Below are positions 6,001 to 64,000 of a DNA stretch of 64,000 nt, piece by piece (the stretch's first letter is position 1; every line of letters begins with the position of its first letter). The notes under the pieces are model-generated. The model had not been told where the DNA came from. It searched no databases and saw only the letters and a program-made list of their open reading frames with translations. The stretch is from a virus, in IMG/VR virus record IMGVR_UViG_3300037963_002171, positions 1 through 64,000 of that record. One strand, given 5' to 3'. Position numbers and translations under genes: made by a program.

Positions 6001-9000
6001 TGAGGTGTTAAAGAAAAATCTTTTTTATCTAAAGAAGATATAAGATTGTTAATATCTTGTTCAAAATTTTCTAAACTTTTTACTTGTCCATTAGCAAGTC
6101 TTACAGATTGATGTATAGCTTTTGTTAAATCTTTTTCCTGAACATTTCTTCCCTGTATATTTCCCTGTAAAGAAATAAACTCTTTTCTAAAAGCAGAAAT
6201 AACTTTGCTTTCTTTATTTTTAGATTCTAAAACACCTTCTATAAAAGAACCATCAACATCATCATCATGCTGTTCTTTTACAAAATCTACACCAGACCCC
6301 TTTAGTGAATCACTTAAATATTTATTAGACCTTTCTTTATATGACTCGTATTCTTCGTTAGACCACCCATACTCTGTAGAACTACTAGGTCCAACCTTTG
6401 CAAGACGCCTAGCTTCTTTATCCATTTTACTTTTCATAGAAAGTTTATGGTCTCTTAATAGTTTTTTACCTGTAGCGTCTAATATGCCACCAGTTCTATA
6501 TTTTTCTAAATCTAAATTCTCGTCTTTTTCTAAAGCTTCATAGTATTCAGAAGTGTAATCTTTTACATCTGCATATTCTTCTGTAGTAAACAATTGATTT
6601 ATATTGCTTTTTTCAGCCATACCTTCTCTGTTAATCCTAAAATCAAACTTACCTTTTTTACCTTGTAGTTGATTATTGTAATCTTTCATTACCTCTGCAA
6701 GAACATCTTTCATAGTTAAAAACTCAGAGTTACCTGTATTTTCAAATATGTCTAAAGCTTCTTTCTTTGTTTTCTTTCCCTTAGCACTACTAAATAATTT
6801 TTTCATGCTACTTAAAACTCTACCTTTTAACTTTAAGTCAACAAGGTTTTCTATGTTTTGTTCGTCTTTAGATTTTGCTATTAAATCTACAACAGCCTCT
6901 TCTACAATATACCTTTGCTCTTCATCAGGTAGAATTTCATAACCTAATGCTTTTGCCTTGTCTATGGTATAAACAGAATAACCTTTAGGACCACCTTCTC
7001 CTTTCTCTCTCCATTTTTCATATGTTAGTATATCCTTACTGTCTCTAACTATATTTTGTAAGTAATATGTTTTATCTCCCTTTTTAAACTTAAGAGCAGG
7101 TGAGTATTTATATTTAGCGTTTGTAAAAACTTTTTGGCCAATAACCATATTTCTTAAAGCTTTAACCCAAGGCTTACTCCACTGACCCATAAGATACACG
7201 TGTGCTAACTCATGAAAAAGTGTTTCTTGTGTTGCTGTTCTTGAATTTAAAAACACAGACAATCCCTCTGCCATACCAGCATACCTTCTTCCACCTTCTG
7301 ATTTTGCAAAATGGTCAAACACAATTAAGTTAGCTCCCATTTTTTTTAATCTTTGTCTAAAAACTTCTTCTACACCAAAATGCCTTTGAGGTATTTTTTT
7401 ACCATACCTATCTTCTACTTTATATAAGTTTTTAACTTCAGATGTTGCTCCAAAAATAATTGTAGGTATAACACCCTCCTCTTTTGGAGGTTTCATTTTT
7501 TTAGTAGGCTTCTTTGTTGGTTTAGGGATTGTTCTTTTTTTTACCTTAATCTTATTTTTAATTTTATTTAATTTAGATGTAGGCGTAGAATCTTCTTTCC
7601 AAGCTTCATATTCTTGAATAGTTTGAGCAATTTTATTTGCAATACCAGGGTCCTTTCCCGAAAAAAATCCTTCAACCGTTTGTACTGGTTGAAACTTATC
7701 TGTATATAATAAACTATATGCAGAAACTAATTCAGCTTTTGATTTTCCTTCTGGATTTGCTAACGCATCTTCTGCTTTATATTTTTGTAATAACTGATTT
7801 CCGCTTGCCGTATTTTTAGCAGAATCTTTTATTTTCTGATTAATAAGTTTCTCACTCTTACCCTTCTTTCTCATAAGGTCAATAAAGGCTCTGTCTGTTT
7901 TTGATAAAGTTTTATCTAGGGCCGTAATTCTATCCGACTCAGGAGTTACTTTTTTATCTTGTTTAGGTTCAGTTTTTTCAGCTTTTTTTATCTCCTCTTC
8001 AGTTACTTCTTCTCTTAACTTTTTAAGTTTTATTTCTTCAGATTTTTTTTTATTCTTTTTATCCAACTCAGCTACAGCATCTTCTGCTTCTTGTAGATTA
8101 TCTTTCTTAACCTGAATCATAGCATCTTCATATCCTGCAATATCTTGATTTAATCCTTCTTTAGTTTTAGCTATTTCTTTATTAAGTATTTCTAACTCTT
8201 CTTTCTTTTGAGCTTCAGCATTTTTTGATGTAGTTTCTCTACTCTCAATTTTAGCTTTTTGTTCTTCAAACTTTTCTAACTGACTAGATAATTGTTCTTT
8301 TGTTTTAGCAACATAAAAAGCCAATCTACCATACTCTCTTAAATGACCAGGAGACATACCTGCTAAAGATGAGTTTGCATATGGTTCAAAAGCTTCTTGC
8401 ATTTCTGTTGCAAGATTTTTTATTTCTTTAGCCTGAGCTTCAGTTATTCTTTTTTCTGAAACTTCTCTTGCTAAATGCTGGTCCATTTGAGCAAAGTCTC
8501 CTTCTGTAACTACAGACAAAACAAAAGACTCTATTGCTTTTGCTTTCTTTACAACTAGTTGCTCGTCTGCTGTAAATTCACCACCTTCTTGACCCTCCAT
8601 TTCTGCTATCTTTTGTGAAGCTTGAGCAAATAAAAGTTGGCTATCAGTATCTTTACTAAAACCTGAAGCCTCTATTTGTCTATCTAATATTCTTTGACCA
8701 TCAGCTAAACTATTTATTACAACTGCACCAGCACCCATACCAAATCCAGCACCAAAAGAAATTACTCTAGTTTCAGCCATTTCAGGACTATTAAAATAAT
8801 CCCAATAACCCATAAACTCTTCTCCTTTTATTTCAGCTAGTCTTGTTCTAACTCTCCAGTCTTGATACACTTCTTGAAACTCTTCTAGTTTACCTTCTGA
8901 ATAAACAGTAGTACCACCACCTATTAAAAACTTAGCCACCTTATTTGCAAAACCTCCTCCCGCAACAAGCTTAACCCCCTTACCCATAAGAGCAGGCATA

Positions 9001-10232
9001 CCTCTAGTAAGTATACCGTATTGTAAAGCATTAATAAACCAATAGTTTTGATTATCTCTCCACACTTGAGAAGCAACAAAAGCTGATTGTTCAGGAGTTA
9101 ATCCCTCCATTGTTTTTGCCTCATGAAAAGCATCTGCAGCAATCATTACACCCTCTGAAGCTGATGATAACTGACCAGCACCAACAAAAGAACCAACACC
9201 TTTTAATGTTGGATTAAACCTGCTTCCATAAAACATTTGACCCACTTGCTTTGTTCTTTGCCCAAATTGACTTTTAACTACAGGGTCAACTAGCTTCTTG
9301 CCAACACCCATCACTCTTCCAGCACCTGGAACTCCTTTTACTAATTTAACAGCACCAGGCAAAGCTCTGGCTCCCATTGCTGCACCAGCAACACCTGTTC
9401 CTATAAACATAAATATATTAGGTATTTGTTCAGCAACATCTGTAAGCCAAAAATCCCAAGATGCCATTTGAGAATAGTCAATAGTTAATTCTCCATTTTC
9501 ATCTTTTTTAACAAAGTCTCCGTGTTTTAATCTTTTTTGTTTTTTTATTGTTTCATTCCAACTTCGCATTTCTGTTCCTGTTTCTCTCCAAATATTTGCT
9601 ATACTAGAAGATAAGTCTATACCAGTTATGCTTTTATATGCATTTGAAACCTTTGCAACATCACCCACTACAGGAATCTTTCCAGCCACTGAAGATGCAA
9701 CTGCTTCTTCTTCTTTTCCCATTTCTGTGTATCCTGTTAATTCTTTCATCCAATCTATAGCATTTGCTCCACTTACTAACATGTTACCTACACCAGAAGC
9801 TATAGCTCCTCCAAACTTTTCTAAAGCATTATAGTTTTTATAAGGAAGATAAGAATCTCTTGCTGCAATTAAAACTGCATTGCTAATAGGTTTGTTTAAA
9901 CCTAAAGCATCTAAGTTTTTATTTGTCTTGTCCATAAAGGCACTATAGTCATCTTCTGGAGATGTAAAGATATTCTGTTTATCATATCCTTCCATTATAT
10001 CAATCTTGTCAAAAACATCTTGGTCTACAAAGCCATATTGTTTGTCGTCTCCTGGACTTACAGAAGGTTGAACAGGGGTGTCCATTGAGGGTGTAGAAAT
10101 AACTTCTTGTGAAGGTATGTTAGATACATTAATATTTTGTTCAGGTATTTCCTGAGTTAAACCCTCGTCGTACAAATTTATATCTGTTTTTAAGTCGCTT
10201 TTGACTTTATTTATATTTGTTGATATTGGCAT
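1..10232 (-). CDS. Giant virion protein with zincin and RNA-polymerase-like DxDGD domains; 3' end lies outside the window
   Basis: The frame is open from the ATG at 10232 to the window edge, giving at least 3410 residues. An N-terminal region has Gly/Ala-rich hydrophobic stretches (about residues 170-240), followed by a Lys/Glu-rich coiled coil (about 600-800). HELAH (residues 1007-1011, bases 7200-7214) is a zincin metallopeptidase motif, and EEAVVD at 1111-1116 could supply the third zinc ligand. DMDGD (2411-2415, bases 2988-3002) follows a segment with RTPYSIGD, a GF-containing strand and IPSEVSDILGS. That order matches the catalytic double-psi barrel of the giant RNA polymerases of crAss-like and related phages. 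It is last in a run of cargo or ejection genes, 5 nt after its neighbour, so it is probably packaged and injected. The motifs are seen directly; polymerase activity is inferred. Confidence 0.72.
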   Translation of the reverse strand, partial: MPISTNINKVKSDLKTDINLYDEGLTQEIPEQNINVSNIPSQEVISTPSMDTPVQPSVSPGDDKQYGFVDQDVFDKIDIMEGYDKQNIFTSPEDDYSAFMDKTNKNLDALGLNKPISNAVLIAARDSYLPYKNYNALEKFGGAIASGVGNMLVSGANAIDWMKELTGYTEMGKEEEAVASSVAGKIPVVGDVAKVSNAYKSITGIDLSSSIANIWRETGTEMRSWNETIKKQKRLKHGDFVKKDENGELTIDYSQMASWDFWLTDVAEQIPNIFMFIGTGVAGAAMGARALPGAVKLVKGVPGAGRVMGVGKKLVDPVVKSQFGQRTKQVGQMFYGSRFNPTLKGVGSFVGAGQLSSASEGVMIAADAFHEAKTMEGLTPEQSAFVASQVWRDNQNYWFINALQYGILTRGMPALMGKGVKLVAGGGFANKVAKFLIGGGTTVYSEGKLEEFQEVYQDWRVRTRLAEIKGEEFMGYWDYFNSPEMAETRVISFGAGFGMGAGAVVINSLADGQRILDRQIEASGFSKDTDSQLLFAQASQKIAEMEGQEGGEFTADEQLVVKKAKAIESFVLSVVTEGDFAQMDQHLAREVSEKRITEAQAKEIKNLATEMQEAFEPYANSSLAGMSPGHLREYGRLAFYVAKTKEQLSSQLEKFEEQKAKIESRETTSKNAEAQKKEELEILNKEIAKTKEGLNQDIAGYEDAMIQVKKDNLQEAEDAVAELDKKNKKKSEEIKLKKLREEVTEEEIKKAEKTEPKQDKKVTPESDRITALDKTLSKTDRAFIDLMRKKGKSEKLINQKIKDSAKNTASGNQLLQKYKAEDALANPEGKSKAELVSAYSLLYTDKFQPVQTVEGFFSGKDPGIANKIAQTIQEYEAWKEDSTPTSKLNKIKNKIKVKKRTIPKPTKKPTKKMKPPKEEGVIPTIIFGATSEVKNLYKVEDRYGKKIPQRHFGVEEVFRQRLKKMGANLIVFDHFAKSEGGRRYAGMAEGLSVFLNSRTATQETLFHELAHVYLMGQWSKPWVKALRNMVIGQKVFTNAKYKYSPALKFKKGDKTYYLQNIVRDSKDILTYEKWREKGEGGPKGYSVYTIDKAKALGYEILPDEEQRYIVEEAVVDLIAKSKDEQNIENLVDLKLKGRVLSSMKKLFSSAKGKKTKKEALDIFENTGNSEFLTMKDVLAEVMKDYNNQLQGKKGKFDFRINREGMAEKSNINQLFTTEEYADVKDYTSEYYEALEKDENLDLEKYRTGGILDATGKKLLRDHKLSMKSKMDKEARRLAKVGPSSSTEYGWSNEEYESYKERSNKYLSDSLKGSGVDFVKEQHDDDVDGSFIEGVLESKNKESKVISAFRKEFISLQGNIQGRNVQEKDLTKAIHQSVRLANGQVKSLENFEQDINNLISSLDKKDFSLTPQQEILARFMRFLNASYNTLDGYGSFNAVQDIHHEFSSIKRQNFYGYTYTEGSGKNKGKTYISMSLAKKIRGKGVKSQDQQIEKEIGKKLVLAKEDLKQLDSPKKIGRLKLISQFYGLRSKMMSIDKQGLSQAESVQKKKNIVSAFIYDNIIPEDMKEDVSVLSLYNTQAVEKIVSDNAFELLKETSMFNFRESKGKTSSVIPFSSKENENKKRYAKSVIDFNINQFKKYHRESGYKVFSQEEVSNIEKLIRFSMANPTPNESGSADFAHIAIKVNKVTVGGNIFKWGIEKGNFLTKPKLNKTIREISRSIFEKYSEQQFDTQIEYPNGESAALLIKHNQIDILQNKLDEMINESNPDSLKNKRELKRLFKGNRIIERWLDGKSQRPRVVPIIGSTIYKNGKRKGFNPGKTPPDQITVFRLSLIANAINNNEKTYSQNISDFGEKNTELHILNAELLSLEEGRLEAEKLGFDKKSRNKDIQEMSDLLLSVQRQRGYKSGIPSVLSEIGLTEKNLEIIKNLREGKVSKKDIPVDTFNRLSRLAEVLEQISVNNFINKHYAKDLYIGPMQYFGKTNQDIFTDYNKRGTGPIASHVTYNKDIRVEPILLNDIERKKLNRTDASSFILLSTAKKIAKKYGGLRKVGQHYKFVYYGQNLDNSTFEKSVGVRHPFYLKTNVFIITDEYADRHPNFKPLKEMLEERDRITGDGVVNVISFKSASKVNGVRASKGLDKKYLNLDDVVNKNKDGDWVVNVDKLNENQDNLFKYNDSEGVTQYGLDGSYFGVQTELDKKSRESTINKQLVLALFSNVNMKEDAEALITKMVDFFGKKYQNFFNKVVVGSKSDISKKLESIVDVVSENISTEAYGPFMKDMVESGSMDSGTYGAVRDIFLSQIRKKGLKMRAPGGIGHQSTDFAIHNGSQIEKLSESSGLSGGYLVGEEGDVQIEVSESFAKQHGYEVGDTLIFQRTPYSIGDAVVTTIAGFNKGQGSMVTIPSEVSDILGSDMDGDNGHMFGIYKKPKKNSIELEYNQMFEDLTKFLKDERFKSFAEFNINSFSDTIKKLEDKGFIRPQKIVDDRTIMGGHKVYRNTKEVGQLIGVSATFNNLQKILSAYNVSTPYISLTNIKYLGLSESYTDKNGKATESLALMLNAFLDNLNKGFATRLNMNMATFPIWSELVSRGLSFEKTAEIMTGDDFVLYAEMKERFPGDSDSDILKRIAKEKYDVDVKKSKDVKVGKKYDEMRNIVNAFNNESINSAKEVLRKLVNFDNSIPQTYIEAQDMLNNIVGLANQGLVNVSGLISVKKKFKAADLYTEMFNKGPEVLLNYIDVKESLVSRNLKKLIEITSTLKRTDTAYTGGYDAIINKIMPFGEKKKFRLFDTNKELRKLESIIRSVRLSKTGIYNYSTLWTSLNNLLGEDVYNIIQDGEIPLHKRFDIVLGYINSVKFSEEFSFINKYFSIVKRDEAIGYNALNKNFNDGPILSLTENGIVLPNVSVNQQIDEFYIKPNMNILSSVSKNQLKKDFAKLPQSIQDFLYVYDLEVNKHDGANRLLPYLQGSAKDKITKATSNQIVNSEKDLQSGNLSPKYINSVAEFVSLNYRGHQRDITSMLTEPQSNFAFIDGVRLSKNGNYIVVEEKADMLLSLFPGLIYKMDIASSNEKNISVLFRAIKGKDGDVLLSPIKESILRGEDQFISNMVEEESRTKDTPTLYMFLDDNHSGYRDIKEKGSPISPDLFMLIDDEQYFRKKDILDFSDYLNMREGRVVNHNNASEKDKKEMEEAYEKYVQDLEEVKGYTRKYLKKNTYGETPLEIEAKYKGKKGIEFIKDLIEKGDGNFKAIKDLDTVAADRLYTSLVKILATKESILGINLIMKRNKDLSPQAIENLKELQLRIRKGDKSIADVTSGDLWGNPDAFNEEMMEVAKMLRDIDKSEMIYRRELNTIRRKTSKAFNALLKSKFKESAGPLWWVMFGAYQGISYIRHFKTFNRHIFSNIAEEVEGYNAEEGR

Positions 10233-43333: not shown

Positions 43334-43813
43334 ATGCCAAAACATCAAATCAAATACAATATTGTTAAAGAAGCTTTAGCTGAGTATATAAAAAACAAAC
43401 AAGTTATACCTATGTATAACAAAAAACAAATTAAAGAAGAGTTTTATAAACTTGAGGACCTTGAAAATAGTAAGGCATTTTTAGTTGACTATAATGCAAG
43501 AAAAAAAGTAAGGGTTGATATACAAATTACAAAACATATTATAATTGATATGTTATGTGGTTTTATAAAAAGAGACCAAGGATTTAATTATATAGGTAGT
43601 AATACTATGTATTCAAAAGATACTAAACAAAAGTATGAAAATGTAGATACCTATATTAAACTAGGAGATAAAGAAACCAGAGAAACAAGAATGGAAAATT
43701 TGGTTTGGGTTATAGAAGAACTTTTATGTTCTGGTAATTTTAGAAACTATATAACAAAAGACCAAGTAAAAAGACTTGTAATATCAACCGAAAACCTACC
43801 AAGCAATGAGTAG
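43334..43813 (+). CDS. Unknown early protein (159 aa)
   Basis: A Lys-rich helical protein (MPKHQIKYNIVKEALAEYIK; NARKKVRVDIQITKHIIIDM) without a recognised domain. It ends in ATGAGTAG, overlapping an in-frame ATG of the amidotransferase frame by 8 nt, so translation of the two may be coupled. As the first gene of the amidotransferase/amidoligase transcript it could be a partner of that system. Confidence 0.55.
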   Translation: MPKHQIKYNIVKEALAEYIKNKQVIPMYNKKQIKEEFYKLEDLENSKAFLVDYNARKKVRVDIQITKHIIIDMLCGFIKRDQGFNYIGSNTMYSKDTKQKYENVDTYIKLGDKETRETRMENLVWVIEELLCSGNFRNYITKDQVKRLVISTENLPSNE

Positions 43814-43898: not shown

Positions 43899-44831
43899 AT
43901 GTGTGGATTAGTAGGCTTTTCAGGTAAAGCAGACACAAGTGTGTTGAAAGCTTTACATTTATTAGCGGACAATGATTCCAGAGGTGGCCACTCTACAGGA
44001 ATGTTCGTAGACAATAAGATATATAAAACATTAGATGAATCAATGAATATATATCCAATGCTTAAATCAAATGTAACTGGTACTGTTCTTATAGGGCATA
44101 CTAGATACGGAACTCATGGTAAAAATACCACTGAGAACGCACACCCATTTCAGCACAAAGGAATTATAGGTGCTCATAATGGTGTGTTAGATAATTATGA
44201 AGAAGTTGGTAAGAAGTTTAATATAAACAAAACTACTGTTGACTCTGAAATGATTATTAAAGTGCTTGGCGAAACAAGAGACGCTGCAAACTTAGGTTTA
44301 TTTGGTGGTACTAAAGCAGTATTATATACAGCTGGAGACAATAGACTTTATGCTTATAGGCATAATAATCCATTGTTTTATTTACGCACAGATAATGGCA
44401 CATACTTTAGTTCTTTGAAAGAAGGTCTTGAAAATCTAACTAAAAGAAAGGAAGATATTACAGAGTGTCAAAAAGATAGAGTTTATGTTTGGGAAGAAGG
44501 TGAGTTAATTAAAACAATTAAAGTTAAACACAAACCAATACCAGCTGCTAAATCTATAAATACAGACTGGCGTTCTTATGGCGGTTACAATAATGTAACT
44601 AGCTCACAGTCAAGCCTTTATAGTCAGGCTAATTTATGGAATGACGATGACCTTAACATTGATAAAGAAGAAGAAGAAAATTATGAAAGAGCTAATCATT
44701 ATCACGACATAATGTTAAATCTAAAAGAACTTGATGAACACCTTGATTTAGATATAGAATCAAGAAAAGTTTTAAATGAAGCAATAAATGCTTTAGATGA
44801 TATAGCTACCGAAATTTATTATTCATATTAA
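43899..44831 (+). CDS. Class II glutamine amidotransferase (Ntn hydrolase), stand-alone, 310 aa
   Basis: It should hydrolyse glutamine and deliver ammonia to a partner. Cys2 in MCGLVGFSGKAD is the N-terminal nucleophile. NDSRGGHSTG (25-34), GHTRYGTHGK, AHPF and IIGAHNGVLDNYEE build the glutamine pocket, and TTVDSEMI has the conserved Asp. No synthetase domain follows; the C-terminal third is acidic and helical. I start at the ATG before Cys2, which has an A-rich context; an ATG at 43806, overlapping the previous gene, would add 31 residues, possibly a propeptide. The next gene, 11 nt away, is an amidoligase, a natural partner. Confidence 0.88.
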   Translation: MCGLVGFSGKADTSVLKALHLLADNDSRGGHSTGMFVDNKIYKTLDESMNIYPMLKSNVTGTVLIGHTRYGTHGKNTTENAHPFQHKGIIGAHNGVLDNYEEVGKKFNINKTTVDSEMIIKVLGETRDAANLGLFGGTKAVLYTAGDNRLYAYRHNNPLFYLRTDNGTYFSSLKEGLENLTKRKEDITECQKDRVYVWEEGELIKTIKVKHKPIPAAKSINTDWRSYGGYNNVTSSQSSLYSQANLWNDDDLNIDKEEEENYERANHYHDIMLNLKELDEHLDLDIESRKVLNEAINALDDIATEIYYSY

Positions 44832-44842
44832 AACTTTAGATT

Positions 44843-46090
44843 ATGGGAAAAGAATTAGAAAAAGGTTATGTTATTGATATGAATGGAGATGAACAACATG
44901 AAAATGATTGTGTTACATTAGCTAATGGAGATATTTGTCATATAGATGAAGCAAGATATTGTGAGTCAGATTCCGAGTATTACCATGAAGGTGATGATGG
45001 GTTAAAATGGTGTGAAACAGGCGAATGTTGGTATTTTGAAGATGAGATGGTATACTGTGACCTTTATAATGGAGGCGAAGGTTGGGTGCATCAAGATACT
45101 GATTATGCATATTCAGAATATAATGATACATATTTTCAAAACAGTGAAACAGCAACTGACTGTGGTTATGCATGGTGTGAAAGACGAGATGATTGGGTCC
45201 CAGAAGAACAAGTTGACGAAGGCGAAGAATGGGATAATACATACAAAATAGTAGACACTATGTTTACTAAAACATTTGGAATGCCTTACACATTTGGTGT
45301 TGAAATGGAAACATGTGAAGGTTATTATGAATACAATAGCGACTTTAGTCTTAAAGCTGTATATGATGGTAGTATTGATGGCAAAGAATATGTTACAGGT
45401 GTGTTACAGGGTAATAAAGGAATAGAGCATTTGGAAAAAATATGTAAAGCTATTAGTTCTGAATGTTATGTTGATAGAACTTGTGGAATCCATGTACATA
45501 TAGGTGGAGCTAACTTTAATAGAAGGTTTGCTATACTATCTATAATGCTTGGTCATTTAATGCAACATCAATTGTTTAGAGTTCAACCTAAATCAAGAAG
45601 GGCTAATACTTATTGTAAAAGAATACCTGAAGAGTTTGAGGAGTTAAGAACTGTAAATAAAAGAGAGTTTCCTTTTACACATAAAAGAATGTTAAGATTA
45701 TTATCTAAATATGTAGAGGGAGGTCTTCAAGGGTTTGGTAAGACTAATTGTAAAAAATCTAGAAACCCACATGGACATTACTCAGGAACAAGATACTACT
45801 GGCTTAATCTAAATAACTTTAGTTATAAGGATGGGCCAGAAACTATTGAGTTCAGGCAACATAGTGGCTCACTTGATTATCATAAGATAAAAAAGTGGGT
45901 GTTATTTTGTATGTGTTATGTTAACTTCATAGAAAATCATTCAAGAACCATAATAGAAACCTATAATAGATTCCAAGAAGACAAAGCAATCTGTATATCA
46001 ATGCGTGAAGTATTGCGTGCAGGTTTAGGAGATAAAGAGGGAGATATTATAGCAGACTATTATGATAACCGTGAACAACGATTCATTTAA
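44843..46090 (+). CDS. Amidoligase (COOH-NH2 ligase) with N-terminal Cys/aromatic repeats, 415 aa
   Basis: The C-terminal two thirds have the motifs of the glutamine-synthetase-fold amidoligase family: FGVEMET (151-157), DGSIDGKEYVTG (175-186), CGIHVHIGG (214-222), YWLNLNNFSYKDG and ETIEFRQHSGSLDYHK. Such enzymes form amide bonds between a carboxylate and an amine using ATP. Residues about 32-125 contain five degenerate 17-22-residue repeats rich in Cys, Trp, Tyr and acidic residues (for example ARYCESDSEYYHEGDDG, KWCETGECWYFEDE), perhaps metal-binding substrate readers. Preceded by a glutamine amidotransferase; a gamma-glutamylcyclotransferase lies 6 kb on. Substrate unknown. Confidence 0.85.
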   Translation: MGKELEKGYVIDMNGDEQHENDCVTLANGDICHIDEARYCESDSEYYHEGDDGLKWCETGECWYFEDEMVYCDLYNGGEGWVHQDTDYAYSEYNDTYFQNSETATDCGYAWCERRDDWVPEEQVDEGEEWDNTYKIVDTMFTKTFGMPYTFGVEMETCEGYYEYNSDFSLKAVYDGSIDGKEYVTGVLQGNKGIEHLEKICKAISSECYVDRTCGIHVHIGGANFNRRFAILSIMLGHLMQHQLFRVQPKSRRANTYCKRIPEEFEELRTVNKREFPFTHKRMLRLLSKYVEGGLQGFGKTNCKKSRNPHGHYSGTRYYWLNLNNFSYKDGPETIEFRQHSGSLDYHKIKKWVLFCMCYVNFIENHSRTIIETYNRFQEDKAICISMREVLRAGLGDKEGDIIADYYDNREQRFI

Positions 46091-46689: not shown

Positions 46690-47013
46690 ATGAAAAAACT
46701 ATTTGATACCTTCTGGAAAGAGTACCCTCGCAAGGTGGGTAAAAAACAATCCCTTGATGCGTGGTTGAGATTAAAACCGTCACCTGAATTATATACAGTA
46801 ATAATGAAAGCATTAACTAAACAAAAACTGTACAAAAAAATGTGTGATGATAATAATATTTGGCACCCAGACTTTCCACATCCAATTAGATGGATTAAAC
46901 ATGAAAGATGGGAAGATGAGGTGCCTGATTTATTAAACACCTTAAACAACCACTTAAAGAGTAATTCACAAGTATATATTAACCCAAATAAAAATGGAAG
47001 AGATGAAAGATAA
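46690..47013 (+). CDS. Helicase-loader / replisome-organiser-like protein (107 aa)
   Basis: FDTFWKEYPRKVGKKQSLDA near the start and IWHPDFPHPIRWIKHERWED in the second half form the small domain found at the C-terminus of many phage replication initiators (F-W-x-x-Y-P-x-K…P-H-P-x-x-W-x-x-x-x-R-W-E-D). Here it stands alone. It overlaps the DnaB-type helicase gene by 20 nt, supporting a helicase-loading role. The domain match is recalled from memory, so the function is probable rather than certain. Confidence 0.65.
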   Translation: MKKLFDTFWKEYPRKVGKKQSLDAWLRLKPSPELYTVIMKALTKQKLYKKMCDDNNIWHPDFPHPIRWIKHERWEDEVPDLLNTLNNHLKSNSQVYINPNKNGRDER

Positions 47014-48298
47014 TAGAGACTATTTAGAAAAAGTTCTTTTAGGTAAACTAATGAACGATAAAAAATTATATTATGACAATCATTCTCTTTTAAGTGTTGA
47101 CATTTTTCAAAACACTAAACACAAAAACCTATACAAAATTCTTGATAAAAGTCTACAAACTATGGGTCAATGTGATATGTCTGAATTTTATAAACAATCT
47201 ACTGACAAATACGAGGCAATAAGTTTGGCTCAGGAATGCAACGATAAAGCATACGACCCATACATTGCAGAAAGATTAATACTAATGTTATTAGAGGACA
47301 ATAAAATGTCAGAACTTCAGAACCTTATGAACTCTGTTAATAAAAAGATAACTGAAGGGGAGGAGTTGTTCACTATCATTGACTTTGCGGACAGTGCGTT
47401 ACAAAAAATTGGTAATGTTTCTAACGACAAGCTCACTCATATTAGTGAACAAATGCCCGATATGATTAAAGGTATTGAAGATAATATCCATAATCAAGGT
47501 ATGACAGGTATTCCTAGTGGATTTGAATCAATTGATAAATTCACAAGTGGTTGGCAAAAACAAGACTTAGTTATCATAGGTGGTGCTTCCTCTATGGGTA
47601 AGACTAGTTTTGCTCTTAATTTAGCTGTAAATGCCTGTAGACACGATGTTAAGTGTGTTATATTCTCTTATGAGATGTCTGTTAATCAAATGCTTATGCG
47701 TATGGTTAGTGGAGACGCTGGTATAGATAATAAACATATGCTTAAGGGTATTATCTATAAAGATGAGTGGGGTAAGATACACAATAGTGTTGCAAGGTTT
47801 GAAAAGCTTAATCTATATATAGATGAATGTAGAAATACTTCTTTAAAGTATCTATTAAATAGAATAAGGCAATATGTTATAACTAAAAAGGTTGATATGG
47901 TTGTTGTAGATTACCTTCAGCTTATTAGTTATAATTTAAATGGCCGTAGTCGTGAGCAAGAAGTTTCTCATGTTACAAGAGCTTTAAAGAACTTAGCTAA
48001 AGAATTGAATATAACAGTATTAGCACTTTCTCAATTATCTAGGAATGTAAGTAAACGCGATGGGGGTCGCCCTACACTTGCCGACCTTAGAGAATCGGGG
48101 GAGATTGAGCAAGCTGCTGATACGGTTATATTTGTTTATAGACCTGAATACTACAATATTAAAGTAGATGAACGAGGCAATAGCGTTGAAGGATTAGCAG
48201 AAATTATATTTGCTAAAGGTAGAAATATTGGTATTGGTAGTAAGCATTTAAGGTTTATAGACTACTTAACTAAGTTTGAAAATTTACCAACAATGTGA
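46994..48298 (+). CDS. Replicative DNA helicase, DnaB family (434 aa)
   Basis: Hexameric 5'-3' helicase. The N-terminal DnaB domain (about 1-140) leads to the RecA-like ATPase: Walker A GGASSMGKTS (196-205), FSYEMSVNQM (H1a region), Walker B DMVVVDYLQLIS and arginine-finger/H4 region SREQEVSHVTRALKNLAKEL then RPTLADLRESGEIEQAAD. Full length for the family. No primase domain is attached. It is coupled to a helicase-loader-like gene and is the central enzyme of a replication module that must borrow the host polymerase. Confidence 0.93.
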   Translation: MEEMKDNRDYLEKVLLGKLMNDKKLYYDNHSLLSVDIFQNTKHKNLYKILDKSLQTMGQCDMSEFYKQSTDKYEAISLAQECNDKAYDPYIAERLILMLLEDNKMSELQNLMNSVNKKITEGEELFTIIDFADSALQKIGNVSNDKLTHISEQMPDMIKGIEDNIHNQGMTGIPSGFESIDKFTSGWQKQDLVIIGGASSMGKTSFALNLAVNACRHDVKCVIFSYEMSVNQMLMRMVSGDAGIDNKHMLKGIIYKDEWGKIHNSVARFEKLNLYIDECRNTSLKYLLNRIRQYVITKKVDMVVVDYLQLISYNLNGRSREQEVSHVTRALKNLAKELNITVLALSQLSRNVSKRDGGRPTLADLRESGEIEQAADTVIFVYRPEYYNIKVDERGNSVEGLAEIIFAKGRNIGIGSKHLRFIDYLTKFENLPTM

Positions 48299-48370: not shown

Positions 48371-48595
48371 ATGATTAGACTTGAACAAGCTGTATCTAAA
48401 GTGTCTGAAGACCTAGGTGTTAGTAAGTCACTTGTTAAAAAAGTGTTAAGCTTAACTTTTAAAGAAATCGAATCCAACTTAAAGGATGGAGATAATTTTA
48501 TGTTCAAAGGATATGTTAAGTTTGTTCAGTCTAAGAATAACAAAAAACCGATTAGTAAAACCGAATTATTTAATTTAAAAACAAAAGATAAATGA
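48371..48595 (+). CDS. HU/IHF-like DNA-binding protein (74 aa)
   Basis: MIRLEQAVSKVSEDLGVSKS then VKKVLSLTFKEIESNLKDGD and FMFKGYVKFV follow the two-helix plus strand plan of HU proteins. The usual DNA-gripping arm is shortened. It has its own consensus promoter, and its stop overlaps the next ATG (AAATGA). It probably bends or organises DNA during replication or recombination. Confidence 0.65.
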   Translation: MIRLEQAVSKVSEDLGVSKSLVKKVLSLTFKEIESNLKDGDNFMFKGYVKFVQSKNNKKPISKTELFNLKTKDK

Positions 48596-49227
48596 AACCG
48601 AATATTATTATTGCTGGACCATCAGGTTCAGGTAAGTCTAGCTCAATGAGAAACTTACAACCAACAAGAACAGCTGTTTTAAATACAGAAAGAAAGCAGC
48701 TACCATTCAAAAATGCTAATGAGTTTATGAATGTTCCAATTAAATCTGTATCAGAGTTCCACTCAGCTTTAGACAAGGCTATGTCAAGTGACAAAATAGA
48801 TACAATAATCGTAGAATCTTTTACATCTCTTATAGAAATTATATTCAGAGAAGCCGACATAAGATACAAAGGCTTTGATGTGTGGAGTTACTATAATAAA
48901 GAAATAGATAAGATTTTAGATAAGTCTAAAAACTCTGATAAGTATGTTGTATTTACTGCTATTGATGGCGTGTATGATGGCGACAATGGTGTTGAAGAAC
49001 GCTATGTTGCAGTAGATGGTAACAGATGGAAGAAAAGAGTTGAGAAAGAATTTGTATTAGCTTTATTTACAGATGTGAGAGCAACTGACGAAGGAGTTAC
49101 ATATAGATTTAGAACAAATACTACTGGTAGAGATTCTGCAAAGAGTCCTATGGGTATGTTTGATAGTTTACATATTAACAACTGTATTAAAACAGTTATT
49201 GATAAATGTGAAGAGTATTATAAATAA
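48592..49227 (+). CDS. Sak4-like RecA-family ATPase (single-strand annealing), 211 aa
   Basis: IIAGPSGSGKSSSM (5-18) is Walker A, and DTIIVESFTSLIEI is Walker B. The short RecA core with NTERKQLPF after strand 2 and a DGNRWKKRVEKEFV segment matches the AAA_24/Sak4 family of phage recombination ATPases. It is followed by a single-strand-binding-like protein and a recombination exonuclease, the usual functional partners. Full length. Confidence 0.8.
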   Translation: MKPNIIIAGPSGSGKSSSMRNLQPTRTAVLNTERKQLPFKNANEFMNVPIKSVSEFHSALDKAMSSDKIDTIIVESFTSLIEIIFREADIRYKGFDVWSYYNKEIDKILDKSKNSDKYVVFTAIDGVYDGDNGVEERYVAVDGNRWKKRVEKEFVLALFTDVRATDEGVTYRFRTNTTGRDSAKSPMGMFDSLHINNCIKTVIDKCEEYYK

Positions 49228-49253
49228 AATTGTTAATTTAAAAAAACCGAATT

Positions 49254-49808
49254 ATGTTTCCAAAATTAGAAGAAACCGATGTAACATCGAATAACAACAC
49301 GCAGTCAAGCTATTTAAAAGCAGGAGCTCATACTGTAAAGATTAAAAGTTTTAAAACTAGTGATGAAAATCCAGGGTATCAAGGTACCCCATACTTTGAG
49401 TTCATTGTAGAAAATGAATTTGGAGCTGCATTTTTAAAGTTTAACGGCATTGATTCACATACAAGTGAAGCAGCAGCCAAAGTTAGAACTAGTATATTTA
49501 AAAGCTTTTTAGTTTCAGCAGGAGCAACGACATATACAGACCCACAAATGGCCGCTAATAGCGTGCTAGGTAAAAGCTTGGAGGTTTGTTTAGCGTCAAG
49601 GGAATATTGGACTACAGACAAAGACACCAATAAGCCAGTAATAAAGTCAAGAATAGAGTATAAATTTGCAAATCCTTTTGGACAAAAGATTACTTTCAAA
49701 GAAAGTTTTAACAAAACTTTGTCTCCAGAGGATAGAGCAGCTTATGAAGCGGCATTGAGATTAGAATCAACTACAGTGTCTAATTCAGAAGTACAAACAC
49801 CATTTTAA
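49254..49808 (+). CDS. Putative single-stranded-DNA-binding protein (184 aa)
   Basis: The beta-rich core (SYLKAGAHTVKIKSFKTSDE; PYFEFIVENEFGAAFLKF) and C-terminal EYKFANPF segment resemble DUF669-type phage proteins thought to act as single-strand-binding proteins beside Sak-type annealases. The tail is acidic (RLESTTVSNSEVQTPF). It directly follows the Sak4-like gene. Function is inferred from fold-like pattern and neighbours. Confidence 0.55.
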   Translation: MFPKLEETDVTSNNNTQSSYLKAGAHTVKIKSFKTSDENPGYQGTPYFEFIVENEFGAAFLKFNGIDSHTSEAAAKVRTSIFKSFLVSAGATTYTDPQMAANSVLGKSLEVCLASREYWTTDKDTNKPVIKSRIEYKFANPFGQKITFKESFNKTLSPEDRAAYEAALRLESTTVSNSEVQTPF

Positions 49809-49810
49809 TT

Positions 49811-49981
49811 ATGAGATTAATAAATCATTTTGGTTCAAACCTTAGACAGAAAGATAAGTTTAGATTAGAAGCTAGAATATTAGGCATAACTTTATTTGAG
49901 TTAAAGTTTGATATATCTAGAAGATGTTTTAAATTAGTTATCCTAAATGTAGGGTTTGGAACAGAGAATTGCATGTGCTAA
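49811..49981 (+). CDS. Unknown small basic protein (56 aa)
   Basis: ATG 49811, 2 nt after the previous stop, with the usual TTTTAATT start context. The protein is basic and hydrophobic (MRLINHFGSNLRQKDKFRLE; FDISRRCFKLVILNVGFG) and ends in CMC. It overlaps the next gene through TAATG. No family recognised. Confidence 0.45.
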   Translation: MRLINHFGSNLRQKDKFRLEARILGITLFELKFDISRRCFKLVILNVGFGTENCMC

Positions 49982-50385
49982 TGATATACAAGCATAAAGC
50001 ATTTGTAAAAAACGGAAAGGTAACTTTCCAAAACAGAGAACAGTTTGACAACGACGTGTCTGGTAATGAGGGTAAGAATGTATACATTACTATTCGGGAG
50101 CAAAAGAACAGGCGTAGCCTGAACCTTAACTCTTATTATTGGGCAGTCGTTGTTAAACTGGTTTCAGTTGAAACAGGATATGACAAAGAAGAAGCACATG
50201 AGATATTAAAATCAATGTTTCTTCGTACTAAATATCAAATAAAAGGAATTTGGGTAGACGGAATGAAATCAACTACTAAGTTGAGCAACCAAGAAATGAT
50301 AGATTATATTGATGAAGTGAAACGGTTTGCATCATCGTCCTTAGGACTATACATACCAGACCCCAATGAAGTAGAGTATGAATGA
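49981..50385 (+). CDS. NinB-like recombination protein (134 aa)
   Basis: IREQKNRRSLNLNSYYWAVV then YDKEEAHEILKSMFLRTKYQ and STTKLSNQEMIDYIDEVKRF with LGLYIPDPNE follow the NinB (lambda Orf) family, a single-strand-DNA-binding helper in phage recombination. ATG 49981 overlaps the previous stop as TAATG and is preferred; a TTG at 49969 would add four residues. It is next to a RusA resolvase, the typical neighbour. Confidence 0.7.
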   Translation: MIYKHKAFVKNGKVTFQNREQFDNDVSGNEGKNVYITIREQKNRRSLNLNSYYWAVVVKLVSVETGYDKEEAHEILKSMFLRTKYQIKGIWVDGMKSTTKLSNQEMIDYIDEVKRFASSSLGLYIPDPNEVEYE

Positions 50386-50866
50386 TTTAGAAATATTTAT
50401 TAACGGCAACGTACCTTCAAGTAAGAATGGAAAGAGATGGACAGGCAAGTACCTGATTCATAGTAAAACTACAATGCGTTATATAAAAGAATCTAAAGGC
50501 GAATATTTAGAACACACATATCCTTTTAAAGAATTTATAAAAAGGTTTAATACCCCTTATGTAATTCATTTTAAATTTTATAGGAAGTCTAGGAGGAAAT
50601 TTGATTACGTTAACCCATTACAAACCGTGCAGGATTTAATGGTTAAGTATGATTGGTTGGAAGATGATAGCTCTGACCACCTCCTACCTATATTTGATAC
50701 ATATGAATACAACAAGGATAAACCTGGAGTATTAATAACAATAAAAGGAAAGGAAAATGACAAAAAGAAGAAAAGGGGGAACCCACTACACAAGACTGTT
50801 AGATTATCTAAAAGAAAACAAAACAATAACAAGTCTTCAAGCAATAAGAGACCTAGGAAACACTAG
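50378..50866 (+). CDS. RusA-type Holliday junction resolvase (162 aa)
   Basis: NGNVPSSKNGKRW near the start and KFDYVNPLQTVQDLMVKYDW then LEDDSSDHLLP supply the family pattern with catalytic Asp residues (D-x-V-N…D…D-D). The fold probably ends near residue 128; the last ~35 residues (KENDKKKKRGNPLHKTVRLS and onward) are very basic and are encoded in DNA that also encodes the start of the next gene in another frame. Overlaps the NinB-like gene by 8 nt. Confidence 0.82.
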   Translation: MNDLEIFINGNVPSSKNGKRWTGKYLIHSKTTMRYIKESKGEYLEHTYPFKEFIKRFNTPYVIHFKFYRKSRRKFDYVNPLQTVQDLMVKYDWLEDDSSDHLLPIFDTYEYNKDKPGVLITIKGKENDKKKKRGNPLHKTVRLSKRKQNNNKSSSNKRPRKH

Positions 50867-51101
50867 GCTATCAGCAACTATATTTGAATTAAGAAAAGAT
50901 GGATACAATATATCTAGTGACGATATACCTGTATCTAATAGATGGGGAGGTAAAACTATGGTAGCTGAATATAAATTAAAAACACACACATCTGTTCCTA
51001 CACAACAAGAAGATGGAACAACAAAGTGGGTAGATTACTATAGCTCAGACGAAGTAAACAGTGGTATTAAAGGAGTGTTAAATAAAATTTTAGGTAAATA
51101 G
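50757..51101 (+). CDS. Winged-helix-like protein (114 aa)
   Basis: HYTRLLDYLKENKTITSLQA then IRDLGNTRLSATIFELRKDG and a wing with TMVAEYKLK form the small helix-turn-helix domain common beside phage recombination genes. It overlaps the RusA gene by 110 nt in a different frame, an unusually long overlap. Its stop lies 2 nt before the exonuclease gene. Likely DNA-binding; target unknown. Confidence 0.65.
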   Translation: MTKRRKGGTHYTRLLDYLKENKTITSLQAIRDLGNTRLSATIFELRKDGYNISSDDIPVSNRWGGKTMVAEYKLKTHTSVPTQQEDGTTKWVDYYSSDEVNSGIKGVLNKILGK

Positions 51102-51103
51102 TT

Positions 51104-51919
51104 ATGGCAAAGAAAAAAATAAAAATTACACCTATTGTAGACAATGAGGTTACAGACTTAAATTATTATGATGACCACATGTATATAACAAACTCTAAAC
51201 TTAAATTATATTTAGAAAATCCGCCTAGAAAGTTTCAACACTTGATAGATTGTCCACCAAAACCTTCAGCAGCAATGAAGTTTGGAACGGCATTTCATAT
51301 GTTGGTATTAGAGGATAAAGAGTTTAGTAAGCATTATGCAGTAGAGCCTGACAGTATAGACAAAAGAACTACCTTGGGTAAAGCAACTTTATTAAAATTT
51401 AACGAAAGTTTAAATGGAAGAGAAGCTGTACCCTATAAAGATTTTTCATTAATGCAGAGTATGAATGCTAATTTAAAAGTAAGCAAAAATTATTCTTTAT
51501 TAGAAAATTGTAATCAGTTTGAAAAAATATATTTATGGAAAAATGAAACCTTAGATATATTGTGTAAAGGAAAGTTAGACGCTGTCAATACTAGAGATAA
51601 GTATATAGTTGATTTAAAAACAACAAGAGACGCAAGTCCAAAAGCTTTTAAAGAAACTATTATTAATCAAAAATATCATATGCAAGCAGCGTTTTATTGT
51701 GACGCATTAGGTTATAAAGATTATTATATATATGCAATAGAAAAATCAAAACCTCATTGCATATGTGTATATAAAATATCTGAAGACTTAATAAAGATGG
51801 GTAGAGATATGTATATAGCGTTGATTAAACACTACAAAAAATACGTGGAAGGTGGAGAAGTTCCTACAGATTATTTTGATAACAAAATATTTGAACTTGG
51901 AAAAGATGATGTGATATGA
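51104..51919 (+). CDS. PD-(D/E)XK exonuclease, RecE/DUF3799-type (271 aa)
   Basis: MKFGTAFHMLVLE (58-70) carries the conserved G-x-x-x-H; E140, GKLDAV (D159) and IVDLKTT (D170, K172) are the metal-binding and catalytic residues, and QKYHMQAAFYCDAL is the Q-x-x-x-Y motif. It should degrade one strand of duplex DNA, leaving single strands for the Sak4-like protein. Full length for stand-alone family members. Confidence 0.85.
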   Translation: MAKKKIKITPIVDNEVTDLNYYDDHMYITNSKLKLYLENPPRKFQHLIDCPPKPSAAMKFGTAFHMLVLEDKEFSKHYAVEPDSIDKRTTLGKATLLKFNESLNGREAVPYKDFSLMQSMNANLKVSKNYSLLENCNQFEKIYLWKNETLDILCKGKLDAVNTRDKYIVDLKTTRDASPKAFKETIINQKYHMQAAFYCDALGYKDYYIYAIEKSKPHCICVYKISEDLIKMGRDMYIALIKHYKKYVEGGEVPTDYFDNKIFELGKDDVI

Positions 51920-51999
51920 ATGACAAACAAGATTTTTTTATAATTTTTATGTTAGTGTGTTGGTTAGTTTTAATGCTAATGGCTTTTGCCGTAAAATAA
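51916..51999 (+). CDS. Tiny membrane peptide (27 aa)
   Basis: ATGA overlap with the exonuclease stop opens 27 codons: MNDKQDFFIIFMLVCWLVLM then MAFAVK. Nearly all hydrophobic after residue 6, so a single membrane span. Short, but its coupled start and snug placement before the next gene support it. Confidence 0.4.
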   Translation: MNDKQDFFIIFMLVCWLVLMLMAFAVK

Positions 52000-52005
52000 T
52001 TTAGT

Positions 52006-52362
52006 ATGGAAATAGTTTTTGTATATGGAACCCTTAGGCAGGGTTATAGTAATCATAGATTAATTATGAATTCTAAAATTATTGACATAGGAAGGACGGT
52101 AAACAACTATGCAATGTACGCAAATGGAATTCCCTATGTGTCTGAAAATGAGGAAGTTTCACAGATATATGGGGAATTATATTTGGTCAGCCCAAAAATT
52201 CTTCTTACCTTAGATATGTTGGAAGGACATCCATCGTGGTATAAAAGGAAGAAGGTTCCTATTGAAACTATAAATGGTAAAATATATAATGCGTGGTTGT
52301 ATTTCAATGAAACTAAAACAGAAAATTTAATTACCTCTGGTGATTATACAGATAATAGATAG
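52006..52362 (+). CDS. Gamma-glutamylcyclotransferase-like protein (AIG2/GGCT family), 118 aa
   Basis: FVYGTLRQGYSNHRL (5-19) is the substrate-binding loop, and LDMLEGHPSWYKRKKV has the catalytic Glu (E73) and the E-G-x-x-x-x-Y-x-R signature. These enzymes release 5-oxoproline from gamma-glutamyl amines. It could act on the product of the amidoligase encoded 6 kb upstream, removing or recycling a gamma-glutamyl group; that link is inference. Full length. Confidence 0.85.
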   Translation: MEIVFVYGTLRQGYSNHRLIMNSKIIDIGRTVNNYAMYANGIPYVSENEEVSQIYGELYLVSPKILLTLDMLEGHPSWYKRKKVPIETINGKIYNAWLYFNETKTENLITSGDYTDNR

Positions 52363-52608
52363 TTGAAAAAACATACAAAAATATATCTAAACCATTTTGG
52401 TTATGGTATAGAAGATTTTATACCATGCACGGTATGTAATTCCCAGGCCGTTGACATCCATCATATTGATGCAAGAAAAATGGGCGGCAGCAATTCTAAA
52501 GATTTTATTGAAAACCTTGCAGCATTGTGCAGATTGTGTCACGATAAAGCTGAATCCAACAAAAAATTTAATCAACAAGTAAAACAAAAACATCTTAAAT
52601 TATTATAA
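52363..52608 (+). CDS. HNH endonuclease (81 aa, TTG start)
   Basis: CTVC (22-25), DIHHID (His 33-34), GGSNSKDFIENLAALC and CRLCHDKAE complete the HNH/zinc fold with paired Cys residues. The start must be TTG at 52363, directly after the cyclotransferase stop, because no suitable ATG lies before the first zinc ligand. Could be a free-standing homing nuclease or a replication/packaging helper; without a terminase-adjacent position the role is open. Confidence 0.8.
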   Translation: MKKHTKIYLNHFGYGIEDFIPCTVCNSQAVDIHHIDARKMGGSNSKDFIENLAALCRLCHDKAESNKKFNQQVKQKHLKLL

Positions 52609-52609
52609 T

Positions 52610-52861
52610 ATGGTAGTAAAAATAAGTCCAGAAATTTTAGCAATGAGATTAACTCATAATAAAATAGAAAAAAAATATAAAGCCTTAGGCTGGTCGCCCT
52701 GGGAAGAAGTGTATGAAAATTATGTAGGAAGAAAATTAACCAAAGAAGCACAGGTTGATTATGAAAAACACTATGAATATTTTTTTAATCAAATAGTAAG
52801 TTTAGCCTCTTCCGTTGAAGAAGAGGAAGTTATTAAATTAAATAATAAAACAAATGAATAA
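52610..52861 (+). CDS. Unknown small helical protein (83 aa)
   Basis: A helical, charged protein (MVVKISPEILAMRLTHNKIE; GWSPWEEVYENYVGRKLTKE) with an acidic tail. It overlaps the DnaA-like gene by 8 nt. No family recognised; it may be a partner of that gene. Confidence 0.5.
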   Translation: MVVKISPEILAMRLTHNKIEKKYKALGWSPWEEVYENYVGRKLTKEAQVDYEKHYEYFFNQIVSLASSVEEEEVIKLNNKTNE

Positions 52862-53345
52862 AACAGAAATTAGTCCATACTTAGAAAACAACACTGCTGT
52901 TGTTAGAGAGGACATAGATAAAGTTATTAATTTAGCTTGTAAACTTGGAGACATAACAAGAGAGGAACTAGAGAGCAGTTCTAGAAAAAGACTAATAGGA
53001 GATGTAAGAATGTGTGTAGGTAATTTATTAAGAAGAGTGTTTGGTATAACACTAGATGAAGCAGGTGTTTATTTAAATAGAGACCACGCATCAATAATAC
53101 ACTATGAAAAACAACATGGGTATTTAATGACACTTAATTATTATAAGAAAATTTACAACGCTTGTGTTGAATTGGCTTGCGACAAGACATTTAATTCAGA
53201 ACAAGTTTTGGAAACTCACTATGAATCTCTTAATAAATTAAAAAAAGAAAACTCTATTTTAACAAGAAGAGTTAAAGAGTTATCAAAAGAATTAAAACAA
53301 TATACCGCAATAAAAGAAAATATTCTTAAATTGCAGTCTATTTAG
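52854..53345 (+). CDS. Protein with DnaA domain-IV-like DNA-binding motif (163 aa)
   Basis: Residues about 41-90 match the DNA-binding domain of DnaA: SSSRKRLIGDVRMCVGNLLR, FGITLDEAGVYLNRDHASII, HYEK. The L-N-R-D-H-x-S-I/V signature is the DnaA-box recognition helix. No ATPase domain is present; the C-terminal 50 residues are a coiled coil (KLKKENSILTRRVKELSKEL). It may mark the phage origin for the phage helicase or compete with host DnaA. Last gene of the rightward block. Confidence 0.75.
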   Translation: MNKTEISPYLENNTAVVREDIDKVINLACKLGDITREELESSSRKRLIGDVRMCVGNLLRRVFGITLDEAGVYLNRDHASIIHYEKQHGYLMTLNYYKKIYNACVELACDKTFNSEQVLETHYESLNKLKKENSILTRRVKELSKELKQYTAIKENILKLQSI

Positions 53346-63615: not shown

Positions 63616-64000
63616 TTAATCTTCTTTTCTTATAAGAGCTCTTCTAGCAAACATAGGCATTCCTTTAATAAAAGAACCTTTTGCTTTGCTGTCGCCCTTT
63701 TTAAAATATTTTGTATCTCTCTCATATTCAGCACCTTTTGCAAAGAAATATAAACCTGAAGTTATATTATCTGCAGTACGTAATACAGGAGGAACAACCA
63801 TGTGTCTTAACTTAGATATGTTCATTAATAAAAACATATCACCAGTTAAACTCCACATATTATTAATTATAGGATTATCATCACTTTCATCATCCATTCC
63901 ACTAGCTAAAGCAATAAGTATAAATAATCCCACAGCACCCTGTGCACCTCTCCACATTCTTTTAACAGCTTCTTGTTTAAAGTCAGGAAGTTTGTTAAAT
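63616..64000 (-). CDS. C-terminal end of a large protein (5' end outside the window), probably of the giant virion protein
   Basis: The frame is open to the window edge: before the first internal ATG (63957) it reads FNKLPDFKQEAVKR. The visible part has two hydrophobic segments (GAVGLFILIALASG; LTGDMFLLMNISKL) and a basic end (KGMPMFARRALIRKED). The partial gene at 1-10232 lacks its C-terminus and runs in the same direction, so joining the window ends would make one gene. That join is inference; an independent gene is possible. Confidence 0.55.
   Translation of the reverse strand, partial: FNKLPDFKQEAVKRMWRGAQGAVGLFILIALASGMDDESDDNPIINNMWSLTGDMFLLMNISKLRHMVVPPVLRTADNITSGLYFFAKGAEYERDTKYFKKGDSKAKGSFIKGMPMFARRALIRKED

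Follow-up and report, generated by a model that had tools for sequence, protein, structure and literature searches.

What do a glutamine amidotransferase, an amidoligase and a gamma-glutamylcyclotransferase do together among the early replication genes of a virus? The question is raised by the window analysed here, a stretch of 64,000 nt that makes up most of the 65,985-bp virus record IMGVR_UViG_3300037963_002171. The amidotransferase and the amidoligase are neighbours on one strand, with the cyclotransferase 5.9 kb downstream of the pair, on the same strand and within the replication block. A first-pass annotation had placed the three families at these positions, with the amidoligase ATG (44843) 11 nt past the amidotransferase stop (44831), and both the families and the arrangement were confirmed. 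The Pfam matches of all three proteins exceed the curated cut-offs and PHROGs agrees. The trio is tentatively read, at somewhat less than an even chance, as a glutamine-fed amide or gamma-glutamyl ligase with its own eraser, which would form one functional unit of the early replication block and act perhaps on an envelope precursor. The linkage itself has been described and named in the literature and never explained biochemically; what is new is a consistent three-part form in an undescribed phage lineage, together with a detached cyclotransferase gene.

The first gene encodes a stand-alone class II glutamine amidotransferase of 310 aa (43899..44831, plus strand; Pfam GATase_6, 7.8e-13). The protein has an N-terminal Cys2, a glutaminase domain at about residues 1-210 and a divergent C-terminal tail, with no synthase domain, and it aligns with the glutaminase domain of GlmS (1xff/4amv). 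Residues C2, R69, T72, H73, N94, G95 and D115 are invariant in 13/13 relatives. The class II signature is present, with a nucleophile Cys after Met removal and the Arg, Thr-His, Asn-Gly and Asp of the glutamine pocket. The open reading frame (ORF) contains an alternative in-frame upstream ATG at 43806, which would bury the nucleophile Cys2. Several relatives (L026, L030, L032) lack an ATG matching 43806 and begin MCGLVGF, which exposes Cys2; therefore, 43899 is the correct start, as the first-pass annotation had it. The predicted function is glutaminase activity with delivery of ammonia to a partner.

The second gene encodes an Amidoligase_2 protein of 415 aa, a glutamine synthetase (GS)-like carboxylate-amine ligase (44843..46090, plus strand; Pfam PF12224, 6.1e-21), which scores 75.9 bits against a cut-off of 22. 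The catalytic domain covers about residues 145-415. E154, E156, D175, E182, H217, H219, E336 and R338 are invariant in 14/14 close relatives, and the ExE (E154/E156), HxH (H217/H219) and ExR (E336/R338) motifs are also invariant across 16 phage sequences. The structural model has a pLDDT of 73.7, with residues 269-332 poorly modelled. Its Foldseek neighbours include GS, YbdK, PafA, Dop and plant glutamate-cysteine ligase, enzymes which work at the gamma-carboxylate of glutamate. The top ten solved matches all belong to this one superfamily, with the best scores for GS (E 5.9e-4) and YbdK (8.4e-4, probability 1.00); the TM scores are only 0.25-0.34, with residues 269-332 poor. A search of genome contigs with the window-type amidoligase gave no relative from cells or prophages.

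The amidoligase also carries a 140-aa N-terminal extension (44843..45262, plus strand) of acidic, aromatic-rich tandem beta-hairpins, which is a new feature of this lineage. The domain contains 40 D/E (29%) vs 7 K/R, is rich in Tyr/Trp and was modelled confidently (pLDDT 86.9). It has no Pfam match, and a fold search of the PDB gave no significant relative (best match E 0.32). A LIM or zinc-finger reading was considered and rejected; the matches were weak (E 2-3), one BFVD match was labelled as a LIM-domain protein, and no metal site is claimed. The domain is less conserved than the catalytic domain (majority fraction 0.56 vs 0.71) and is absent from most relatives.

The third gene encodes an AIG2-like gamma-glutamyl(amine) cyclotransferase of 118 aa (52006..52362, plus strand; Pfam GGACT, 7.1e-26), with a PF06094 score of 91.6 bits against a cut-off of 22.8. 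The YGTL motif and the catalytic E73 are kept in 11/11 sequences. Its solved relatives are ytfP (1xhs), ykqA (2qik) and AIG2-like domain-containing protein 1 (3jub), the last of which we take to be the gamma-glutamylamine cyclotransferase GGACT, which cleaves gamma-glutamyl amines. E73 aligns with the Glu in the LDDFE motif of 3jub; the same position is Gln in the sister entry 3jud. Loss of catalytic residues in one partner, raised in the first-pass annotation as a reason to doubt a joint function, was not seen, and the active sites are intact in every amidotransferase (13/13), amidoligase (14/14) and cyclotransferase (11/11) compared.

Conservation within the lineage extends from the residues to the arrangement of the genes. 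Relatives were collected by a scan with the neighbouring DnaB helicase (26 contigs), and all three genes are present, in unchanged order, in every one of these contigs that covers the place. When the amidoligase itself served as the query, 28 loci were obtained; all of those covering the place, including distant ones of 27-43% identity, have the amidotransferase directly upstream. The cyclotransferase is present in 10/10 whole records of the lineage searched and, wherever a relative spans both, lies about 6 kb from the pair. Pairwise omega, from Nei-Gojobori type counts in which many values of synonymous divergence (dS) are high, lies at about 0.08-0.25 in the cyclotransferase, 0.09-0.29 in the amidotransferase and 0.17-0.43 in the amidoligase. 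All three genes are under purifying selection. The distant alignments A1 and A2 offered no suitable stretch for the pattern scan, for which closer ones were used.

The families are also linked outside of the lineage. The first-pass annotation had mentioned their linked occurrence in comparisons of amidoligases, and several papers do describe a phage cassette and cite Iyer et al. 2009. PMC5498523 gives (from Iyer et al. and Hardies et al. 2013) a "peptidoglycan modification cassette" of five to seven genes in RIO-1/PSA-HP1, phiEco32, LUZ24 and CW02. Since the linkage has been described and named, the finding is less unexplored than the first-pass annotation suggested. Other phage loci were reached here by amidotransferase and cyclotransferase searches of named phages, and were chosen by hand for diversity as a non-random set. 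They come from Vicosavirus NV1, Suseptimavirus ECBP2, Alcaligenes, Zobellviridae, Grimontviridae, spring-water and Arthrobacter phages. The amidoligase is present in every named-phage locus found via the amidotransferase, and the same three families occur together in independent phage groups. The trio thus recurs in unrelated phages and its linkage is conserved; a lack of conserved linkage, named in the first-pass annotation as grounds for refuting the proposal, was not seen.

A single protein combines the amidotransferase and cyclotransferase domains in phage C75C1, in record ctfjg026 and in 13 viral contigs (phage loci L017, 4503-5399; L019, 7503-8720; and L046-L058). The amidoligase is just upstream of the fusion in 10/13 viral contigs, and the remaining 3 stop short of that place. 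In ctfjg026, the 8 kb around the fusion showed no amidoligase. The fused amidotransferase domain falls under the Pfam cut-off (21.9-22.5 vs 23 bits). Its Cys2 and N-G motif are found in 13/13 contigs and its R-T motif in 12/13.

A chromosomal set of 34 amidoligases (Bacteroidota, Verrucomicrobiota and others; L080-L113) was obtained from a scan with a different amidoligase subfamily, with flanks of up to 8 kb. One has a cyclotransferase neighbour and none has an amidotransferase neighbour (0/34); therefore, the amidoligase family per se does not carry the linkage. Some of the genomes have several chromosomal amidoligase copies (Parabeggiatoa, Verrucomicrobia UWPOB_VERRUCO3).

Conservation and the domain fusion support a functional link between the three genes. 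Of the first-pass proposal, in which the three could make and trim an amide or gamma-glutamyl modification, this link stands, together with the families and their intact active sites; the reaction and the substrate we can only infer. The amidotransferase would split glutamine into ammonia and glutamate beside the amidoligase. The amidoligase, as a member of the GS and gamma-glutamylcysteine ligase superfamily, would activate a carboxylate with ATP and join ammonia or another amine to it; the carboxylate used in that superfamily is most often the gamma-carboxylate of glutamate. The cyclotransferase would strip gamma-glutamyl groups having a free alpha-amine, freeing 5-oxoproline. The three proteins show no apparent signal sequence, which suggests that the target should be cytosolic. 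The most likely class of substrate may be a precursor of the host envelope, either a peptide or an amine. A change in the envelope could perhaps counter superinfection or tune lysis, as others have proposed for the full cassette. In the literature the cassette is suggested to alter the side chains of peptidoglycan and so to block superinfection (PMC5498523, PMC11318856, PMC10580990, PMC11253131), and action on peptidoglycan is a hypothesis in PMC5498523 too.

Several observations weigh against this reading. The cyclotransferase is at a distance of 5.9 kb from the pair, the placement among replication genes would fit a nucleotide or DNA target equally well, and the fold scores of the amidoligase are modest. 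No biochemical result was found for any phage member, and no substrate in the literature searched. Some phage amidoligases have no amidotransferase within 5-6 kb; a Porphyromonas phage locus (L006) has a solitary amidoligase, and a Bacillus phage locus (L018) has an amidoligase and a cyclotransferase only. The supply of ammonia is therefore not universal. A cyclotransferase of this kind requires a free alpha-amine on glutamate, and D-glutamate within peptidoglycan has none. This speaks against the ordinary stem linkages of peptidoglycan and would favour a gamma-glutamyl cap in a terminal position.

A broader proposal, possible and rather doubtful, is that the trio represents the smallest working set of a widespread phage system for gamma-glutamyl capping and uncapping of a cytosolic target, which the acidic N-terminal domain of the amidoligase in this lineage would recruit. 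If this is true, the substrate of the system would be found most easily with the reduced version. The hosts of cassette phages include Pseudomonas, Escherichia, Vibrio, Salmonella, Bacteroidota, Cyanobacteria and Planctomycetes; the three-part lineage and the natural fusions narrow the search to the amidotransferase, amidoligase and cyclotransferase, a tractable minimal set for enzymology. A target among the envelope precursors would explain a route of superinfection exclusion, and a protein or nucleotide target would be a new phage modification.

The most probable alternative to the envelope reading is protein tagging, in which the amidoligase would add glutamate or an amide to side chains of host or phage proteins by a PafA-like logic, with the acidic N-terminal domain picking the target and the cyclotransferase reversing the reaction. 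The Pup ligase PafA and Dop are among the fold neighbours of the amidoligase, and the lineage-specific N-terminal domain resembles a recognition module and is less conserved than the catalytic domain. However, no target protein is linked to the trio, and cyclotransferases of this fold work on small gamma-glutamyl amines. The absence of the N-terminal domain from most relatives also means that it cannot define a common function. Tagging of proteins is unlikely on this evidence.

It is quite unlikely that the target is a base or nucleotide in phage DNA which the unit would amidate or aminoacylate. The trio does sit among helicase, recombinase, SSB and exonuclease genes in the window, and elsewhere it is found beside primase and helicase genes or beside uracil-DNA glycosylase and ribonucleotide reductase genes, but such a position may reflect early expression only. 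The proteins scanned, which did not include every ORF, contained no recognisable enzyme for carboxylating, hydroxymethylating or otherwise modifying bases, and the cyclotransferase would have no obvious role.

An auxiliary role in nitrogen metabolism, with recycling of glutamine, ammonia and glutathione-type peptides for phage synthesis, is improbable. Bacteria already own glutamine synthetase and glutaminases, and a dedicated ligase kept over a large phage divergence suggests a specific target. This role is favoured by the authors of the Phage-ZRK32 study, but in the available text of that paper the ZRK32 effect is not traced to these genes (PMC10945688). Finally, the idea that the three genes are functionally unrelated and share only an early expression block may draw on the 5.9 kb before the cyclotransferase, the similar spacing in close relatives and the lack of this gene in an otherwise complete cassette (cr108_1), but it is made very improbable by the domain fusion, the recurrent adjacency in unrelated phages and the retention in 10/10 lineage records.

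The remainder of the window gives the context of the trio. The terminase, portal and major head protein are akin to those of crAss-like phages and Flavobacterium phages, and the virus appears to be a relative of the crAss-like phages of Bacteroidota and of Flavobacterium phages. A megablast of the region against named phages gave no match. None of the three trio genes has an obvious Shine-Dalgarno sequence at its start, which is the common situation in Bacteroidota, and a Bacteroidota host is suggested. The trio is in the plus-strand replication block, and the structural genes are on the opposite, minus strand. The DnaB-like replicative helicase used as the anchor for collecting the 26 relatives is in the same block (46994..48298, plus strand; Pfam DnaB_C, 1.8e-83). 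Around the cyclotransferase is a replication and recombination block (48371..53345, plus strand; Pfam) with the same gene order in relatives. It encodes AAA_24/Sak4-like, SSB-like, NinB-like, RusA-like, PDDEXK exonuclease (DUF3799), HNH-like and DnaA C-terminal-like proteins, with the SSB, RusA and HNH labels assigned from sequence and position. The DnaA C-terminal-like DNA-binding domain is in the protein at 52854-53345 (2.3e-07, just under the Pfam cut-off). Shortly upstream of the amidotransferase is a 159-aa protein of no clear family (43334-43813), whose conservation is for the most part limited to the closest relatives (47-55% identity). A giant ORF (3-10232, minus strand), at least 3410 aa long, continues past the window start; should the 65,985-bp record be circular, its continuation may be the open frame at 63616-63999 (minus strand), for a protein of about 4,000 aa in all.

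How does the trio compare with known systems? The peptidoglycan amidation pair MurT/GatD has unrelated folds (class I GATase, Mur ligase) and serves as an analogy only. In the Staphylococcus aureus pair (PMC3267633), a glutamine amidotransferase and an ATP-dependent ligase cooperate, like the pair proposed in the window. PADLOC, which covers defence and not counter-defence, gave no match for the three proteins. Phage C75C1 and the 13 fusion contigs have the same three domains close together, but two of the three are in one protein. In the Arthrobacter phage Salgado (Laroyevirus), the last three genes are the cyclotransferase, amidoligase and amidotransferase, and, like the window, it has no ATP-grasp or COOH-NH2 ligase (6 kb examined). 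The Salgado trio is contiguous, however, and its amidoligase is of a different subfamily without the acidic N-terminal domain.

The Crassvirales Cellulophaga phage phi14:2 and uncultured phage cr108_1 have the nearest named amidoligases by fold, which are among the best by sequence, and both share the window order of amidotransferase then amidoligase. In phi14:2 the cyclotransferase, ATP-grasp, COOH-NH2 ligase, amidotransferase and amidoligase are consecutive, unlike in the window. The cr108_1 phage differs in having no cyclotransferase and an extra Peptidase_C26, which was searched for and is absent from the lineage of the window.

The known peptidoglycan modification cassette, like the window, has a GATase II, an Amidoligase_2 and a gamma-glutamyl cyclotransferase among early replication genes. 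The known cassette is compact, whereas in the window the cyclotransferase is 5.9 kb apart and the amidoligase bears a unique, acidic N-terminal domain. The known cassette also adds a COOH-NH2 ligase (PF14395) and an ATP-grasp ligase, two further ligases that the first-pass annotation missed and that are both absent here. The COOH-NH2 ligase type 2 profile had no match in the record of the window or in 8/9 related records, with phi14:2 and cr108_1 strongly positive; a weak match in the record G008 (2.4e-4) was discounted, since its position is within the amidoligase gene itself (L043). The ATP-grasp profile matched 0/10 lineage records and, strongly, both controls (phi14:2 and cr108_1). Since these two defining parts are absent, the trio is a reduced variant of the cassette and not a full member. 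The distant relatives L078 and L079 carry the full set; in these contigs a second, smaller amidotransferase-like ORF is directly downstream of the amidoligase (L078, 11466-12131; L079, 10989-11750). In the tree, the trio-type amidoligases of the lineage and the Crassvirales-type amidoligases of full cassettes are intermixed in one supported clade (98/96); therefore, cassette parts have been lost or gained at least once.
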